NCBI RefSeq assembly: GCF_016863315.1
Contig: NZ_BOOQ01000002.1
Location: 186,001-250,000 of the forward strand
DNA length: 64,000 nt
Origin: Planotetraspora silvatica
GTDB lineage: Bacteria > Actinomycetota > Actinomycetes > Streptosporangiales > Streptosporangiaceae
Direction of reading: 5' to 3'
The translations under genes were made by a program, and so were the position numbers. This document shows, piece by piece, positions 40,988 through 59,964 of this stretch. The stretch's first letter is position 1. Every line of letters starts with the position of its first letter. Under the pieces are notes generated by a model. That model saw nothing but the letters and a program-made list of their open reading frames with translations, was not told the origin of the DNA and searched no databases.

Positions 40988-41123
40988 GACCTGACCATAG
41001 ATTGCCGACACGGCCACCCGCCAATGGAGAGTGGATAACGAATTGACTAAGTACTGCGCACAATGCGTAATGACCGCCTTGTGCGTATCCCTCCCGATCA
41101 GGGCTAGGCTAGGGGCGTAAGAC

Positions 41124-41214
41124 GCGCGGGAGCCCGGCAGGCCGGGCTGAGAGGAGAGCGTGAGGCTCTCGACCGCAATCGACCTGATCCGGGTAATGCC
41201 GGCGAAGGGAGCGC
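41124..41214 (+). ncRNA. TPP riboswitch (THI element)
   Basis: The thiamine pyrophosphate aptamer is complete: CGGGAGCC and GCUGAGAGGA form the pyrimidine-sensing arm, and ACCUGAUCCGGGUAAUGCC with GCGAAGGGA the diphosphate-sensing arm. GCGC at 41124-41127 pairs with GCGC at 41211-41214 to close P1. The thiO start GTG is two bases beyond P1, and the AAGGGAG ribosome site lies inside the aptamer, so ligand binding should hide it directly. Confidence 0.93.
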
Positions 41215-41215
41215 A

Positions 41216-43433
<2,218 letters not shown>

Positions 43434-46577: not shown

Positions 46578-47924
46578 TCATCTCCCTGGGGTCAGGAACC
46601 GTCCGTTCGGCGTGACGTAGTCGACCGCCACACCGCGTGACCACGTGGTCCGCACGACGCCCTTCAGCGTCCTGCCGTGGTAGGGCGAGACCGGGTTGCG
46701 ATGGTGCAGCGCCGCCACGTCGACCGTGAACTCGGCCGCCGGGTCGAAAGCCACCAGGTCGGCGTCCGCGCCGGCCCGCAGGCCCCCCTTGTACGGCAGG
46801 CCGGCCAGTGCCGCGGGCCCCCGGGCCATCCACCTGACGACGTCGGCCAGGCCGTACCCCCGGGAGAGGGCGGCGGTCCAGACGACGGGCAGTCCGAGCT
46901 GGAGCGAGGAGATGCCACCCCACGCCGCGGCGAAGTCGGGCACCTTGAGATCGGGCGTCGACGGCGAGTGGTCGGAGACGATCCCCATCAGCACGCCGTC
47001 CGCGAGGGCCTGCCAGAGAGCGTCCCGGTTGGCGGCCTCCCTGACGGGCGGGCAACACTTGTACGCCGGTCCGGTGACCTCCTCGGCGGTCAGGCAGAGA
47101 TAGTGGGGACACGTCTCGGCGCTGATCCGCACGCCGTCCCGCTGAGCCTGGCGCAGTGGTTCGACGCAGGCGGCGGCCGAGACGTGCACGATGTGGGCGC
47201 GTGCTCCCGTCTCCGCGGCCAGCTCGATGACCTGCTCGACGGCTCTCCGCTCGGCGTCCGGGGTACGAGACCTCAAGAAGTCCGGATATGTCGGGCCGGT
47301 CGGTTCGGTCAGCGCGGCGGGATCCTCCGCGTGCGCGATGAGCAGCCCGTCGAACGACGCCAGCTCCGCGAGCGCGGCCCTGAGGCCGTCGCGATCGAGC
47401 GCGGGGAACTCGTCGACGCCTGAGGGAGACAGGAAGCACTTGACGCCGAAGACGCCGGCCTCGTGCAACGGCCGCAGGTCCGCCACGTTGCCGGGCACGG
47501 CCCCGCCCCAGAAGCCGACGTCGACGTGACACTGCCCCCGGGCCGCCTTCCGCTTGATCTCCAGCGAGGCGACGTCGACCGTGGGCGGCAGCGAGTTGAG
47601 CGGCATGTCGACGATCGTCGTCACGCCTCCGGCGGCGGCCGCCCTGGTGGCCGAGGCGAACCCCTCCCAGTGGGTCCGCCCGGGCTCGTTGACGTGGACG
47701 TGCGTGTCCACCAGACCGGGCAGCAACGCGAGGTCGCCGAGGTCGGCGGTCTCCCGCGCGGGAGGCGGCTCGTCATAGGGCAGCAGGGCCGCGATCCTGC
47801 CCGCTCGTACGGCCACCACCAGCGGGCGCTCTCCGTCGGGGGTGACGGCCCGGCGCGACCGGACGACCAGGTCGTACGGCTCGTCCATGGCCGTGGCGTC
47901 CGGGACGCTCTCGGCGGCGCTCAC
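46578..47924 (-). CDS. allB: allantoinase
   Basis: A 448-residue amidohydrolase opening allantoin to allantoate. DTHVHVNEPG holds the first metal histidines, VFGVKCFLSPSG the carbamylated lysine, and GIVSDHSPSTPDLK the catalytic aspartate. I chose the GTG that overlaps the upstream stop codon by four bases; an ATG 12 codons inside (MDEPYDLVV) is possible. The open frame upstream belongs to no gene. Confidence 0.93.
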   Translation of the reverse strand: MSAAESVPDATAMDEPYDLVVRSRRAVTPDGERPLVVAVRAGRIAALLPYDEPPPARETADLGDLALLPGLVDTHVHVNEPGRTHWEGFASATRAAAAGGVTTIVDMPLNSLPPTVDVASLEIKRKAARGQCHVDVGFWGGAVPGNVADLRPLHEAGVFGVKCFLSPSGVDEFPALDRDGLRAALAELASFDGLLIAHAEDPAALTEPTGPTYPDFLRSRTPDAERRAVEQVIELAAETGARAHIVHVSAAACVEPLRQAQRDGVRISAETCPHYLCLTAEEVTGPAYKCCPPVREAANRDALWQALADGVLMGIVSDHSPSTPDLKVPDFAAAWGGISSLQLGLPVVWTAALSRGYGLADVVRWMARGPAALAGLPYKGGLRAGADADLVAFDPAAEFTVDVAALHHRNPVSPYHGRTLKGVVRTTWSRGVAVDYVTPNGRFLTPGR

Positions 47925-49285
47925 TCGGCGGCCGCCAGCAGCCGGCGGTGGGCCCGTGCCCCCGCCTCTGCGGCCTCGGCGTCGGAGACCGTCCGCAGCT
48001 CGCCGTCCTCGACCACCGTCCGGCCGCCCACCAGGAGCCTGGCCAGGTGCGGGGTCTGACCGTACGCGAACGCCACGACGGGATCGTCGATCGCCGCGTG
48101 GTAGCCGCCGAGCCGCCACAGGGCGATGTCGGCCAGTTTGCCGGCCTCCAGGGAGCCGATCTCCTTCTCACGTCCGAGGCACCGAGCCCCGCCGATGGTG
48201 GCCAACTCGAGTGCCTGGCGGGCGGTCAGGGCGCGCGGGCCGTACCGGGCGCGCTGCATGAGCATCGCCATCCGCACCTCGCCTGCGAGCGGGGTCATCT
48301 CGCTGGAGGCCGCGCCGTCGACGCCGAGTCCGACGGGGGCGCCCGCGCGGAGCAGGTCGGAGATGCGGGCGATGCCCGCGCCGAGGCGTCCGTTGGACGA
48401 GGGACAGTGGGCGGTGCCCGTGCCGGTCTGGGCGAAACGGCGGATGTCGGCGTCGGTCAGATGGACGCAGTGGGCGAGCCACACGTCCGGGCCGAGCCAG
48501 TTGAGCTGCTCGAGGTACTCGACGGGGAGCATGCCGAACTGCGCCCTGCAGTGCTCGTCCTCGTCCGCGGTCTCCGCGATGTGGGTGTGCAGGCGGACGC
48601 CGTACGAGCGGGCGAGCTCCGCGGACCTGAGCATCAGCTCGCCGGTCACCGAGAACGGCGAGCAGGGCGCGACGGCGACGCGGAGCATCGAACCGAACGA
48701 CGGATCATGATATTTGCGGATGGCATCCTCGGTGGCCTGGAGAACCTCGTCGGCCTCCTCGACGAGGTCGTCCGGCGGCAGCCCGCCCTGGGACTGGCCG
48801 CGGTCCATCGAGCCGCGGCACGGATGGAACCGCACCCCCACCCGCCGGGCCGCCTCGATCTCGGCGTCGAACAGGTCGCCGCGCCCCTTGGGGAAGACGT
48901 AGTGGTGGTCGGTCGACGTCGTGCAGCCCGACCTGGCCAGCCAGGCCAGCCCGGCCGTCGCCGCTCCCGAAACCACTTCGGCGTCCATCCGTCCCCACAA
49001 CCGGTAGCTGGCGACCAGCCACTCGAACAGCGTCCCGTCGGGCGTGACGCCCTGCGAGGCCCACTGGTAGAGGTGGTGATGGGTGTTGACGAACCCCGGG
49101 GTCGCCAGGCAGCCGGATCCGTCGACGCGCTGCGCGCCCTCGGGTACGGCTCGCGCCGCGCCCGGGCCGACGGCCGTGATCCGGTCGTCCTCGATCACGA
49201 TGTGGCCGGAGGGGATCTCCTCCCCGACGACCGGGACGATGTGGGCGTTCTCGATGACGACTCGCCGTATTGCATGATCACGCAA
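47921..49285 (-). CDS. 8-oxoguanine / guanine-type deaminase (amidohydrolase)
   Basis: A 454-residue zinc-dependent deaminase of the AtzB/TrzN-like group, whose actinobacterial members in purine operons are annotated as 8-oxoguanine deaminase. Metal and catalytic motifs: NTHHHLYQ, LHTHIAE, HCVHLTD and LGVDGAASSE. The start is a TTG, weakly supported: the first codons (encoding MRDHAIRR) fall inside the last copy of the 53-bp repeat family and no clear ribosome site is seen. The body from VVIENAHIVPV onward is certain. Substrate (8-oxoguanine, guanine or another aminopurine) is not proven. Confidence 0.85.
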   Translation of the reverse strand: MRDHAIRRVVIENAHIVPVVGEEIPSGHIVIEDDRITAVGPGAARAVPEGAQRVDGSGCLATPGFVNTHHHLYQWASQGVTPDGTLFEWLVASYRLWGRMDAEVVSGAATAGLAWLARSGCTTSTDHHYVFPKGRGDLFDAEIEAARRVGVRFHPCRGSMDRGQSQGGLPPDDLVEEADEVLQATEDAIRKYHDPSFGSMLRVAVAPCSPFSVTGELMLRSAELARSYGVRLHTHIAETADEDEHCRAQFGMLPVEYLEQLNWLGPDVWLAHCVHLTDADIRRFAQTGTGTAHCPSSNGRLGAGIARISDLLRAGAPVGLGVDGAASSEMTPLAGEVRMAMLMQRARYGPRALTARQALELATIGGARCLGREKEIGSLEAGKLADIALWRLGGYHAAIDDPVVAFAYGQTPHLARLLVGGRTVVEDGELRTVSDAEAAEAGARAHRRLLAAAE

Positions 49286-49441
49286 AGGAAACTCGCAGGT
49301 CAGAGTGGTCGGCGGCGAAGGTGCGCATGATCACGCCCGGAGAACGGGCAGGCCGGAGGGGTGTTCTCCGAACATGTGCATGATCACGCACGGGAGGCTC
49401 GCGGGCAGGGCGGCATGATCACGAAGGTGTGCATGATCACG
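49271..49441 (-). repeat. 53-bp-family repeat array A, between the 2Fe-2S subunit and deaminase genes
   Basis: Five GCATGATCACG cores on the plus strand (TGATCA at 49275, 49328, 49381, 49416, 49434) with spacings 53, 53, 35 and 18, where 35 plus 18 equals 53. Read on the minus strand, the first core contains the stop codon of the 2Fe-2S gene and the last contains the start region of the deaminase. Two complete units share the pattern TTCG at unit positions 17-20 and GACCTG or GGCCTG at 35-40 with array B. Confidence 0.9.
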
Positions 49442-49910
49442 GCTGGTGTTTGCGGACGGCGGCCAGGCGGACGGCGTCGAGGATCTTCTCGTACCCGGTG
49501 CATCGGCAGAGGTTGCCGGCCAGGGCCTCGCGGATCTCGGCGTCCGCGGGAACCCCGGGCGTGCTCTCGATCAGCGAATGCGCCTGGACGATCAGCCCGG
49601 GAGTGCAGAACCCGCACTGTACGGCTCCCGCCTCCACGAAGGACCGCTGGACCTCGTCCAGCTCCCCGCCCGAGGCCAGGCCCTCCACCGTGATCACTTC
49701 CCGGCCCTCCGCCTGGCCGGCCGCGACCAGGCAGGCGCAGACCGGGGTTCCGTCCAGGTAGACCGTGCACGAGCCGCACTCGCCCTGCTCGCAGGCGTTC
49801 TTCGCCCCCGGCAGGCCGAGCCGTTCCCTGAGGACGTAGAGGAGGCTCTCGCCCTCCCAGACGTCGTCCGCGGCCATCGACTCGCCGTTGACACTGATGT
49901 TCACCCTCAT
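49437..49910 (-). CDS. molybdenum hydroxylase 2Fe-2S subunit (xanthine dehydrogenase type)
   Basis: A 157-residue iron-sulfur subunit with two clusters: CEQGECGSCTVYLDG with the following VCAC for the plant-type cluster, and QCGFCTPG with NLCRCTGY for the second. It passes electrons from a molybdenum subunit to the FAD subunit, presumably in xanthine or hypoxanthine oxidation. The catalytic molybdenum subunit gene is not in the window, although it usually follows directly. The start overlaps the FAD subunit stop (ATGA). The stop codon TGA is part of the first 53-bp-family core. Confidence 0.93.
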   Translation of the reverse strand: MRVNISVNGESMAADDVWEGESLLYVLRERLGLPGAKNACEQGECGSCTVYLDGTPVCACLVAAGQAEGREVITVEGLASGGELDEVQRSFVEAGAVQCGFCTPGLIVQAHSLIESTPGVPADAEIREALAGNLCRCTGYEKILDAVRLAAVRKHQP

Positions 49911-57038: not shown

Positions 57039-58073
57039 ATGGTCATCGTCATGGCCCCCGGAGCCACCCAGGACGACATCGAGTCGGTCGTCCTGCTCGT
57101 CGCCTCCGCCGGAGGCGAGGCCTTCGTCAGCCGGGGAGTGAGCCGCACGATCATCGGGCTGATCGGCGACGTGGAGCAGTTCGCGGCACTGAACCTCCGG
57201 GGACTGCCGGGCGTGGCGGACGTGGTGCGCGTCTCCACGCCGTACAAGCTGGTCAGCAGGGACAACCATCCCGAACGGTCCACTGTCACCGTCCGCGGGG
57301 TCCCGATCGGCCCGGACACCGTCACGCTCATCGCCGGCCCGTGCGCGGTCGAGACTCCCATGCAGACCCTCGAGGCCGCCGAGATGGCCAAGACCGCGGG
57401 CGCGACCCTGCTGCGCGGCGGCGCGTTCAAGCCGCGGACCTCTCCGTACGCCTTCCAGGGACTCGGGGAGAAGGGCCTGCGCATCCTGGCGGACGTCCGG
57501 GAGCAGACGGGCCTGCCGATCGTCACCGAGGTGGTCGACGCCCACGACGTGGCCCTGGTCGCCTCCTACGCGGACATGCTGCAGGTGGGAACCCGCAACG
57601 CCCAGAACTTCGCGCTGCTCCAGGCCGTCGGCGCCGCGGGCAAGCCGGTCATGCTCAAGCGGGGCATGACCGCCACGATCGAGGAATGGCTGATGGCGGC
57701 CGAGTACATCGCGCAGCGGGGGAACCTCGACATCGTGCTGTGCGAGCGGGGCATCAGGACGTACGAGACGGCGACCCGCAACACGCTCGACATCTCGGCG
57801 GTGCCCGTGGTGCAGCGGATGTCCCACCTGCCGGTCATCGTGGACCCGTCCCACTCCGGCGGCCGCAGGGACCTCGTGCTGCCACTGACACGGTCGGCCA
57901 TCGCGGTCGGGGCCGACGGCGTGATCATCGATGTGCACCCGCACCCCGAAGAGGCTCTGTGCGACGGCCCGCAGGCTCTGGTCGACGGTGACCTGGACGA
58001 GCTGGCCATGATCATGCAGGAGTTCCCCAAGCTCATGTCCCGCACCCTGGCCACCACCCCCCCTGGGGCGTGA
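57039..58073 (+). CDS. 3-deoxy-7-phosphoheptulonate (DAHP) synthase, type I beta
   Basis: A 344-residue enzyme for the first step of the shikimate pathway. A ferredoxin-like regulatory domain (about 1-75) precedes the TIM barrel, whose motifs are GPCAVETP, GGAFKPRTSPYAFQG, QVGTRNAQNF, LKRGMTATIEEWL and VDPSHSGGRRDLV. This is the Thermotoga-like type, with feedback through the N-terminal domain. Start at the ATG after AGAAGG; the frame is open upstream through the leader in another reading. The TGA stop codon is part of the first 53-bp-family repeat core. Confidence 0.94.
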   Translation: MVIVMAPGATQDDIESVVLLVASAGGEAFVSRGVSRTIIGLIGDVEQFAALNLRGLPGVADVVRVSTPYKLVSRDNHPERSTVTVRGVPIGPDTVTLIAGPCAVETPMQTLEAAEMAKTAGATLLRGGAFKPRTSPYAFQGLGEKGLRILADVREQTGLPIVTEVVDAHDVALVASYADMLQVGTRNAQNFALLQAVGAAGKPVMLKRGMTATIEEWLMAAEYIAQRGNLDIVLCERGIRTYETATRNTLDISAVPVVQRMSHLPVIVDPSHSGGRRDLVLPLTRSAIAVGADGVIIDVHPHPEEALCDGPQALVDGDLDELAMIMQEFPKLMSRTLATTPPGA

Positions 58074-58298
58074 TCATGCACAGGTTCGGCGAACCCCCAG
58101 CCGACCTGCGCACACTCTCGCCGTGATCATGCACAGGTTCGGCGGGAGCGTGGCTGACCTGCGGCCACTCCGGCCGTGATCATGCACGGATTCGGTGAGA
58201 CCCTGGCCGACCAGCACATATACGCCGCGTGATCATGCGCAGATTCGCGGTTGACCCATTCGACCTACGCCGATGCCTTTCGTGATCATGCACGGCCG
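58069..58298 (+). repeat. 53-bp repeat array B, left arm (5 units)
   Basis: CGTGATCATGCAC-type cores begin at 58069, 58122, 58175, 58228 and 58281, an exact 53-base period. The first core contains the aroG stop codon. Four units share TTCG at positions 17-20 and GACC at 35-38; the last 12 bases of each unit are variable. The fifth unit is only conserved in its first part. Period is not a multiple of three and the array is not coding. Confidence 0.93.
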
Positions 58299-58303
58299 GG
58301 TTC

Positions 58304-58335
58304 GTACGGCATGCGCGTCACAGCGCATGCCGTAC
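58304..58335. repeat. palindrome in the centre of array B
   Basis: GTACGGCATGCGC and its perfect complement flank GTCACA. The 13-bp stem lies between the two opposed repeat arms. It could terminate transcription from both sides or be a protein site. Confidence 0.75.
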
Positions 58336-58407
58336 AGACCCCGCGACACCACCGGGACGGCGAGCACGAGTCTCGCGGGGCACCCGGACCGGGAGGACCC
58401 CGGGGCG

Positions 58408-58642
58408 AGTACGCGCGCATGATCACGCACGGAGTTCCTGCAGGTCAGGTACGCCATCGGGGAACCTGCGCATGATCACGCGGCGTATATGTGCTGGTCA
58501 ACCAGGCTTCCGCCGAATCCGTGCATGATCACGGCGAGAAGACGTGCTGGTCGGGCGGCCTTTCTTCGAACCTGTGCATGATCACGAAAATGATTCGGGC
58601 AGGTCAGATGGGCCGACCACGAACTTGTGCATGATCACGCCC
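58408..58642 (-). repeat. 53-bp repeat array B, right arm (5 units, inverted)
   Basis: Same cores on the minus strand; TGATCA at 58420, 58473, 58526, 58579 and 58632, again exactly 53 apart. Reading from thiI, the first core starts about ten bases after the stop codon. One unit (core at 58526) is nearly identical, inverted, to the third unit of the left arm (core at 58175), including the run GACCAGCACATATACGCCG. Confidence 0.93.
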
Positions 58643-58649
58643 GAAGGGG

Positions 58650-59852
58650 TCAGGTGTCGGCGTCCAGGCGGTAGGGGCGGATGGAGTCGGCCAGCTGGGA
58701 TGCCAGGTCTTCCGCGTCCAGGCGCTTCTCGATCAGCTTCAGGTCCTCGATCTTCGCCCGGGTCTCGGCCGAACGCGGAGCCAGCAGCGTGCAGCAGTCC
58801 TCGTCGGGGAGCTCGGAGATCTCCAGGGTGCCGATCCGGCGGGCCTCCGCGATGATCTCGGTCTTGTCCAGCCCGATCAGCGGCCGGAGGATCGGCAGGT
58901 CGACGGCGTTGTCCTGCGCGGTGATGTTCGTCAGCGTCTGGGAGGAGACCTGGCCGAGTGAGTCACCCGTGACGAGAGCCTCGGCGTGGATGCGGTGGGC
59001 CACCTCCTCGGCCGTCTTCAGCATGAGCCGCCGCTGCGCGATCATGGCGAGCCGGTCCTGGCCCGACGCCCTGATCGACTGCTGGGCCTTGCCGAACGGC
59101 ACGACCCACAGGCGGGACTTGCCCTGGAACTTGTCGAGGTTGCGGACCAGCGCGTACGCCTTGTAGATCGACTCAGACGTCGTGAACGGAATGCCGGAGA
59201 AGTGCAGGAAGTCCACCCGGAGCCCGCGGCGCATCATGCGGTACGCGGCGACCGGGGAGTCGATGCCGCCCGACATGAGCACCAGGCCGCGACCGCTGGA
59301 GCCGACCGGAAGGCCGCCCTGGCCGGGGATGCCGCCGGTGAACAGGAACACCTCGTCCCTGTCGACCTCGATGTGCACGGTCAGCTCGGGGTGCTTCAGG
59401 CTCACCGGCAGGCCGTAGGTGTCGTTGATCGCGCCGCCGACGAGCCGGTCCAGCTCGTTGGAGCGCAGCGGGAACCGCTTGTCCCGCCGCCGCGACCTGA
59501 CGGCGAAAGGCGCCTTGCGGGCCACCTCGTCGGTGTCCCGGACGAGCTCGATGGCCGCCTTCGTGACGACCTCGGGGTCCTTGGGGACACGCCACGCGAG
59601 GTGGATGAGGACCAGGCCGGGCACCTCCGACACCCGCTGCGCCACCGCCGCCGCGACCTCGTAGGCGGTCCCCTCAGGCAGGAACAGCGCGATGACGCCG
59701 TGCCGCTGACGGATGTCCACCGAGTAGTCCTTGAGGGCGGCCTTGATGTTCGCCCGCAGCCGCATCTCGAACAGCTCGCGGTTCCTGCCCTTGAGGACGA
59801 CCTCGCCTAACTTGAGCAGGACGCAGGGCTCTCCGAGTGTGGTCATCGACAT
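58650..59852 (-). CDS. thiI: tRNA 4-thiouridine synthase / thiazole sulfurtransferase ThiI
   Basis: A 400-residue enzyme that adenylates uridine 8 of tRNA and inserts sulfur; it can also supply sulfur for thiamine. A THUMP domain (about 60-165) is followed by the PP-loop motif LMSGGIDSPVAAYRMM and by EDCCTLLAP near the end. There is no C-terminal rhodanese domain. I chose the ATG at 59852 since a CCGGAGG ribosome site lies between it and an upstream ATG at 59876. thiS and thiG are elsewhere in the window, so both uses are possible. Confidence 0.93.
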   Translation of the reverse strand: MSMTTLGEPCVLLKLGEVVLKGRNRELFEMRLRANIKAALKDYSVDIRQRHGVIALFLPEGTAYEVAAAVAQRVSEVPGLVLIHLAWRVPKDPEVVTKAAIELVRDTDEVARKAPFAVRSRRRDKRFPLRSNELDRLVGGAINDTYGLPVSLKHPELTVHIEVDRDEVFLFTGGIPGQGGLPVGSSGRGLVLMSGGIDSPVAAYRMMRRGLRVDFLHFSGIPFTTSESIYKAYALVRNLDKFQGKSRLWVVPFGKAQQSIRASGQDRLAMIAQRRLMLKTAEEVAHRIHAEALVTGDSLGQVSSQTLTNITAQDNAVDLPILRPLIGLDKTEIIAEARRIGTLEISELPDEDCCTLLAPRSAETRAKIEDLKLIEKRLDAEDLASQLADSIRPYRLDADT

Positions 59853-59964
59853 AGGTGGGAACCTCCGGACGGACATTTCATGCCACGGGCGACAACGCGC
59901 CGGCCCAGCGAGAACTTCCCCACTGTAGTGCCGTGCGGCGGGGTCTCGTCCGCCCCCGCAGGTG

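Follow-up and report, generated by a model that had tools for sequence, protein, structure and literature searches.

Inward-facing arrays of a dispersed 53-bp repeat in Planotetraspora enclose the gene for a candidate partner nuclease

The MIRU repeats of mycobacteria are intergenic tandem repeats of actinobacteria, which can overlap stop codons, and the DNA uptake sequence is a mostly solitary short motif, found also within coding DNA. A partner enzyme is known for only a few of the dispersed repeats found in bacteria; for the family described here a specific candidate is proposed, belonging to a class unlike RAYT. In REP/RAYT systems (PMC8266576, PMC8049555, PMC3116915), the partner gene is mostly single copy, vertically inherited and accompanied by repeats in its flanks; the repeats are species-specific, and genomes without the gene have fewer of them. 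TIRtrons are RAYT-like genes with long terminal inverted repeats on both sides (PMC3733652). The first-pass annotation of the DNA analyzed here knew of no described family with the properties of the present repeat, a judgement supported by searches: the arrays had no match in Rfam, and in the open-access literature, to which the search was confined, subscription papers being outside its scope, no title among those listed was on this repeat or on a pairing of repeat and nuclease. The string GTGATCATGCA itself occurs in 12 open-access papers, including one on Streptomyces ArgR; among the matches listed, no title deals with the present repeat.

The window is a stretch of 64,000 nucleotides from Planotetraspora silvatica, and coordinates below refer to it unless a contig is named. 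Within it, the gap between an aroG-type DAHP synthase gene (57039..58073, + strand; PF00793, DAHP_synth_1) and thiI (58650..59876, - strand; PF02568, ThiI), both identified by Pfam, carries two inward-facing arms, whose upstream neighbors are aroG and thiI, respectively. The plus arm (58069..58293) contains five cores, at 58069, 58122, 58175, 58228 and 58281, and four complete 53-bp units; the minus arm (58415..58639, - strand) contains five cores ending at 58639, 58586, 58533, 58480 and 58427. The ten cores, five per strand, and the 53-bp step, which holds without exception within each arm, are thus as originally annotated. The same is true of their placement: the first plus core contains the TGA with which aroG ends (58071-58073), and the thiI stop, at 58650, is found ten bases past the outermost minus core. 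Seven of the ten cores match the 13-mer exactly, and GTGATCATGCNC, with at most one mismatch, finds 18 matches in the window against 1.43 expected, a number reached by none of 100 shuffles. As to the blocks reported to be shared by the eight complete units, GACC at positions 35-38 is found in all eight, but TTCG at positions 17-20 in seven only, the other reading TTCC. The center of the site is occupied by a hairpin-forming inverted repeat (GTACGGCATGCGC..GCGCATGCCGTAC, 58295..58344), located 3' of the last plus core; a similar hairpin is found in the aroG-thiI gap of four out of five species. Cross-arm units at equal outer register are at least 60% alike in 13.8% of cases (n=138), compared to 2% of random pairs. 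At this locus the third units from the outside of each arm (58175-58227 and 58481-58533) have nearly the same sequence, oppositely oriented, as though one arm had been copied into the other. Within the aroG coding sequence, at 58007-58025, another stretch resembles the core and has TTC after it (CATGATCATGCAGGAGTTC), but is off the array register.

The exact 13-mer occurs 654 times in the 8.66-Mb genome of the window (G000), 340 times forward and 314 times in reverse, while the reversed-pattern control was never found. The 628-kb contig of the window contains 32 arrays, 29 of which, at 20 sites, have three or more units; the three two-unit arrays are probably due to chance. None of the 84 exact cores on this contig is solitary, for which reason a DNA uptake sequence was rejected. 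Five tRNA-like genes are present on the same contig, and none adjoins an array. Unit anatomy was derived from a set of 241 units, chosen to share less than 70% of their sequence beyond the core. Hardly any variation is seen at positions 2-11 (GTGATCATGC) and at T18 C19, and conservation is strong at Y34, R36, C38 and G40, while the remaining positions are variable; the conservation of the core is partly a selection effect, because units were found by core match, from which positions 14-53 are exempt. Neighboring units are more similar to each other (0.444) than units of different arrays (0.364), which argues for local duplication as a source of additional units.

The proposal that RNA pairing accounts for the unit less well than linear recognition is supported by the same 241 units, where the strongest covariation (0.065) does not exceed the largest one found in 30 column shuffles (0.066), and the proposed stem pairs have |z| of 1 or less. 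RNAalifold, applied to the eight units of the window, predicts three pairs, none of them compensatory. An RNA hairpin or riboswitch-like unit was discarded on the lack of covariation and of any Rfam match. No coding signal was found in the 53-bp unit, in-frame stops being present in 30 of 241 units where 34.6 are expected from column shuffles. On these figures both a MIRU-like coding repeat, whose unit would be a mini-ORF devoid of stops, and a chain of overlapping mini-ORFs (GTG start over TGA stop, 53 = 54 - 1), whose frame is open no more than expected, were rejected. The present family differs from MIRU in this respect, as well as in having inward-facing arms and a partner gene.

Sites are largely kept between species. 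In G003 and G004, two of the four Planotetraspora congeners (G001-G004), every paired site has an array (13 of 13 and 10 of 10, respectively), in counts leaving out two two-unit sites without arrays there. Unit numbers differ between paired sites, one of which has the opposite arm: in this gap, at G000:C2:346807 and its G003 counterpart, the arm is plus in one of the two species and minus in the other, and arms may therefore be lost independently. When G000 is compared with G003, with 80-96% identity in the flanks used, core positions 2-11 differ in 3 of 360 comparisons (0.8%) and variable positions in 349 of 898 (39%): the profile positions of the unit are under purifying selection. Between G000 and G004, 15.4% of variable positions differ, about four times the value of other intergenic DNA (4.1%), an excess which suggests unit turnover or conversion. 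Selection on spacing, also proposed originally, is borne out by the comparison with G004, where small indels are depleted in arrays (5 per 257 substitutions, against 68 per 741 in other gaps; Fisher p = 1e-4), but not by that with G003, where no clear depletion is seen (66 per 597, or 0.111, against 175 per 1260, or 0.139) in alignments made unreliable by shifting units.

Species also have their own dialects. Positions 13-16 read GAAG in 92-96% of 26 G001 units, whereas position 13 is C in 93-99% of the units of G000, G003 and G004; C20 is found in 93% of 15 units of G105, a genome of the same family, whereas the other genomes have G there in 93-100% of units. Since orthologous arrays, such as those between aroG and thiI, changed together, this concerted shift points to a trans-acting reader of the arrays. 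A CRISPR array was rejected, because spacers at orthologous sites diverge gradually between species, as in vertical inheritance, and two inward arms are present.

Among 341 genomes of the family, the five Planotetraspora (171-755) and G105 (562) are rich in pairs of cores spaced by 52-54 bp, whereas numbers are low in some members of genera g69 and g80. In genus g69 (L198-L210, L238-L240) the first unit of many arrays has a core of its own, TGATCTTG[C/T]AGTTTGTCG, from which most of the units after it differ. A direct-repeat pattern of the core, applied to 394 genomes sampled across the class, was matched by nine: two by a single match, two from the family itself (G000, G111) and five from three other families, with 13-150 matches each and their own tail and spacing. 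The shared core is GTGATC[A/T]TGC, which the searches require, so that other cores would have escaped them, and is combined with lineage-specific tails and periods (37, 34, 32 and 22 bp). G422 has 417 cores over 3.1 Mb; in 100 kb that were read, the commonest spacing is 37 bp and arms face inward in six out of six two-arm gaps. The suggestion that 53 bp, as about five turns of B-DNA, would place all cores on one side of the helix is therefore not general, as the same core is found at the other periods. The idea of a DNA-binding protein behind it is supported in part, by the selection on spacing and by linear rather than RNA recognition; the enclosed nuclease gene described below, which was beyond the reach of the first-pass annotation, alters this reading. 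A viral or plasmid origin was rejected, four IMG/VR matches being lower-GC repeats (0.48-0.50) of another kind.

Placement and polarity were evaluated on 184 distinct arrays, by using a home-made codon-usage gene caller. All but one (183 of 184) are not spanned by a called gene. A same-sense gene lies upstream of 125, with the array starting at a median of 16 bp after its stop codon and within 100 bp in 121 cases; in 26 of these 125, the TGA of the core is itself the stop codon. Stop codons, as at aroG, are not the only place for arms, since 58 of the 184 have an opposite-sense gene upstream, at varied distance. In two-arm gaps the order is plus-then-minus in 62 out of 62, whatever the orientation of the genes, and arm pairs are convergent in 71 cases and divergent in none, with an inner gap of 11 bp in 20 of the 71.

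A gene encoding an AbiEi-like domain fused to a predicted nuclease domain is enclosed by such arms. Homologues were found in 17 of 23 genomes searched, and core arrays stand to the left and right of the best one in 11 (G000, G001, G003, G004, G111, G115, G120, G422, G712, G761, G849). In G662 it has five cores and in G028 an inverted core pair, in both on one side only; in G702 a variant core (CTGATCATGCA) is found on both sides; in G105 and G690 the flanks contain other inverted repeats, and in G676 no core or inverted repeat was found in them. The nuclease is the sole gene called between the arms at all 11 doubly enclosed loci. The lead was post hoc, the gene having been noticed twice among 41 array-adjacent genes in other families, and enclosure at 11 of 13 core-associated loci compares with 0 of 840 genes enclosed by arms on two contigs (0/531 and 0/309; Fisher p = 2e-23). 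Among the ten closest homologues from the 341 genomes of the family (E < 1e-100), nine are flanked by cores left and right, and that of G028 on a single side; the following 20 that were examined include none flanked on both, and a lone stray core accompanies one of them. Some homologue, mostly distant, is detected at E up to 1e-20 in 213 of the 341. Only distant homologues were found in plasmid and phage records (nine plasmid records and one phage record), and none of the 42 pattern matches in viral contigs is a nuclease relative by tblastn.

The G000 gene (C26:7774-8739, minus strand) is an open frame of 322 codons; it is single copy, as are its counterparts in Planotetraspora and in genus g69, while G422, G662, G712, G761 and G849 have 4-6 homologous matches each, the best one by core arrays. 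The encoded protein matches Pfam MTES_1575 (4.9e-11) and AbiEi_1 (2.4e-5), both above cut-offs, and its N-terminal half matches the AbiEi profiles of PADLOC (3e-15). Seven proteins were scanned with the nuclease profile MTES_1575, and two, from G000 and G120, score above the curated cut-off; those of G422, G712, G761, G849 and G662 are below it and are tied in by homology search. Residues D224, E235, D237, H242, D251, R254, R255 and W263 are invariant in 13 proteins, which we take to be the pattern expected of a PD-(D/E)XK-type nuclease. A search for solved-structure relatives by sequence gave two weak matches (E 0.09), not credible. The likeness to AbiE, a type IV toxin-antitoxin, lies in the N-terminal half: the present protein has a fused nuclease domain, and no AbiEii gene is found among the Pfam-identified neighbors (dehydratase, P450, RelA, DUF349, ClpX), so that an AbiE toxin-antitoxin was rejected.

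Across genomes the gene occupies three or more genomic sites. dTDP-glucose dehydratase and P450-like genes bracket it in all seven family genomes in which both neighbors were compared, and the G028 locus shares the dehydratase; the neighbors are RelA and DUF349 in family f96 (G662, G712), and a ClpX-type gene is common to G422 and G849. In G002 the gene is missing from the shared site, where about 95 bp with a degenerate unit relic are left, and this species has 171 core pairs, compared to 608-755 in its four congeners: in this one species, absence of the gene coincides with array contraction. The shared site consists of 60 and 28 bases without cores in G113 and G116, respectively, and G243 has a truncated homologue between cores, along with arrays. 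The two do not always go together. Arrays without a close homologue are present in G105 (562 pairs; its one, distant homologue is not between these cores), G117, G121 and G002, and in G028, G074 and G075 the gene is accompanied by no more than 1-2 core pairs spaced by 52-54 bp.

Relatives of the nuclease may be enclosed by other repeats. At 23 of 52 homologue loci, two of which overlap, the inverted-repeat alignment of left and right flanks surpasses all 572 controls made by pairing flanks of different loci; among homologues L348-L367 this was found in 0 of 20. Inverted repeats of 36-92 nt enclose several relatives without core arrays, as in TIRtrons; the enzyme is unrelated to that of TIRtrons, and TGATC is present on both sides at 6 of 12 such loci, the chance of TGATC or GATCA in a random 70-nt window being 0.13. 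Hairpin-like inverted repeats of 59-73 nt, of other sequences, are found on both sides of L326 and L335 (G849), L327 (G761) and L323 (G105). In a tree of 50 proteins, array-flanked members do not form one clade, and at least five changes separate them from the others; inverted flanking repeats may therefore be an old property of part of the nuclease family, with arrays as one outcome. The repeat flanking the G105 gene had one weak match when dispersed copies were sought in 140 kb, so that dispersal is not shown for this relative.

The likeness to REP/RAYT systems lies in high-copy, dispersed, extragenic repeats, which differ between species, and in a single-copy gene flanked by them, as seen in Planotetraspora and g69. 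The differences concern the enzyme, which is AbiEi-like plus PD-(D/E)XK-type rather than Y1/HUH, the unit, which has no GTAG- or CGTC-tagged palindrome, and the arrangement in tandem arrays of fixed period with two inward-facing arms. The Y1 (HUH) transposase PF01797 is absent from 17 of 23 genomes, including G000, G002, G003, G004, G105, G115, G120, G422, G662, G712, G761 and G849, and a RAYT/Y1 transposase was accordingly rejected as the partner; matches in G001, G110, G111, G112, G117 and G243 indicate presence at the genome level only. Because the defining enzyme and stem-loop are lacking, the family is not filed as a REPtron, though it would work alike.

Repeats with such polarity, constraint and dialects, which enclose one gene, are probably the dispersed recognition sites of a single AbiEi-like/PD-(D/E)XK-type nuclease fusion, working in a REP/RAYT-like manner with an unrelated enzyme. 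Most likely, the protein would read core plus tail, and nicking or cutting would promote the copying and upkeep of units. The nuclease domain would recognize the conserved GTGATC[A/T]TGC core and the N-terminal domain the lineage-specific tail; repair following the cut or nick would copy and maintain units, the joining being left to the host, and ordinary tandem duplication and deletion may also change their number. Enclosure of the gene, however, could in part be due to autoregulation. As a secondary effect, protein-bound arrays at gene ends might substitute for hairpin terminators. A wider proposal, plausible but tending to the doubtful side, is that AbiEi-nuclease fusions may form a second, RAYT-independent class of repeat-disseminating enzymes across Actinomycetota, each bracketed by an inverted repeat peculiar to it, in which the core is often of the TGATC type and the tail evolves fast, and that some lineages may have expanded these to hundreds of tandem arrays, now protein-dependent transcription boundaries of the host.

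Transcription is also central to the rival reading in which host selection maintains the arrays in the first place as polar, factor-dependent terminators or as insulators, with the AbiEi-nuclease as the bound factor or as a mere neighbor. Hairpins at or below -22 kcal/mol are scarce at array-bearing ends, being present in 6% of 69 array bodies, and in 22% of 27 and 17% of 42 stretches following arrays, whereas among control ends they occur in 53% of the convergent (n = 190) and 39% of the co-directional ones (n = 192). An intrinsic terminator was rejected, as array bodies fold about like shuffles preserving base composition only (mean best hairpin -14.2 against -13.6, n = 69). Arrays thus often stand where hairpin terminators are missing, which makes a role in termination plausible, and the scarcity is compatible with arrays acting as terminators or having displaced them. 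Single arms are sense in 27 of 40 co-directional gaps (p = 0.04), and the strong constraint on cores also fits a host function. Against it, the gene upstream is of opposite sense for 58 of 184 arms, two-arm gaps face inward regardless of gene orientation, and only 9 of 89 convergent gaps on the 628-kb contig carry a site; moreover, termination alone leaves both the dialect shifts and the enclosure of one gene unexplained. We consider this reading unlikely as the primary explanation.

Inward arms around a gene, with gene-less dispersed copies elsewhere, resemble transposon ends, and the arrays might be relics of a conventional transposon, whose ends had several transposase-binding sites, with non-autonomous dispersed copies and the nuclease as passenger. 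The 71 convergent arm pairs against no divergent one, and the presence or absence of the element among genomes at a shared site, fit this scheme; yet a Y1 transposase, the one family searched, is absent from most genomes including G000, the nuclease alone is called between the arms at 11 loci, the sites are old and syntenic, as the paired ones in G003 and G004 indicate, and an informal comparison at one filled/lost site revealed no clear target duplication, so that this origin appears improbable. Still less probable is an RNA-level 3'-UTR element, i.e. a processing or stability signal transcribed with the gene: the same-sense gene shortly upstream of 125 of 184 arrays would suit it, but the units lack covariation and paired stems, array bodies fold about like shuffles, and arms also lie antisense to the adjacent gene. 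Recognition by the nuclease fusion remains the preferred reading; the repeat family itself is real, constrained and widespread, and the enzyme is a strong candidate for its partner.

Enclosed gene and arrays point to a little-known system spreading or maintaining repeats in bacterial chromosomes, and the pairing would suggest a function for uncharacterized AbiEi/DUF559-like proteins. As the candidate is specific and occurs in several actinobacterial families, with natural losses (G002; a relic in G243), the spread and persistence of extragenic repeats, and the gain of the host, become directly testable.

The window contains a second array of the family (49270-49441, - strand), a single arm having four cores in 53-bp register and one off register at 49411. 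Its first core holds the stop codon of a 2Fe-2S protein gene (49437-49910), and its last one extends as far as the start called for an amidohydrolase gene (47921-49285). The sole Rfam match in the window at gathering score is a TPP riboswitch at 41116-41227 on the + strand (RF00059, 58.4 bits).
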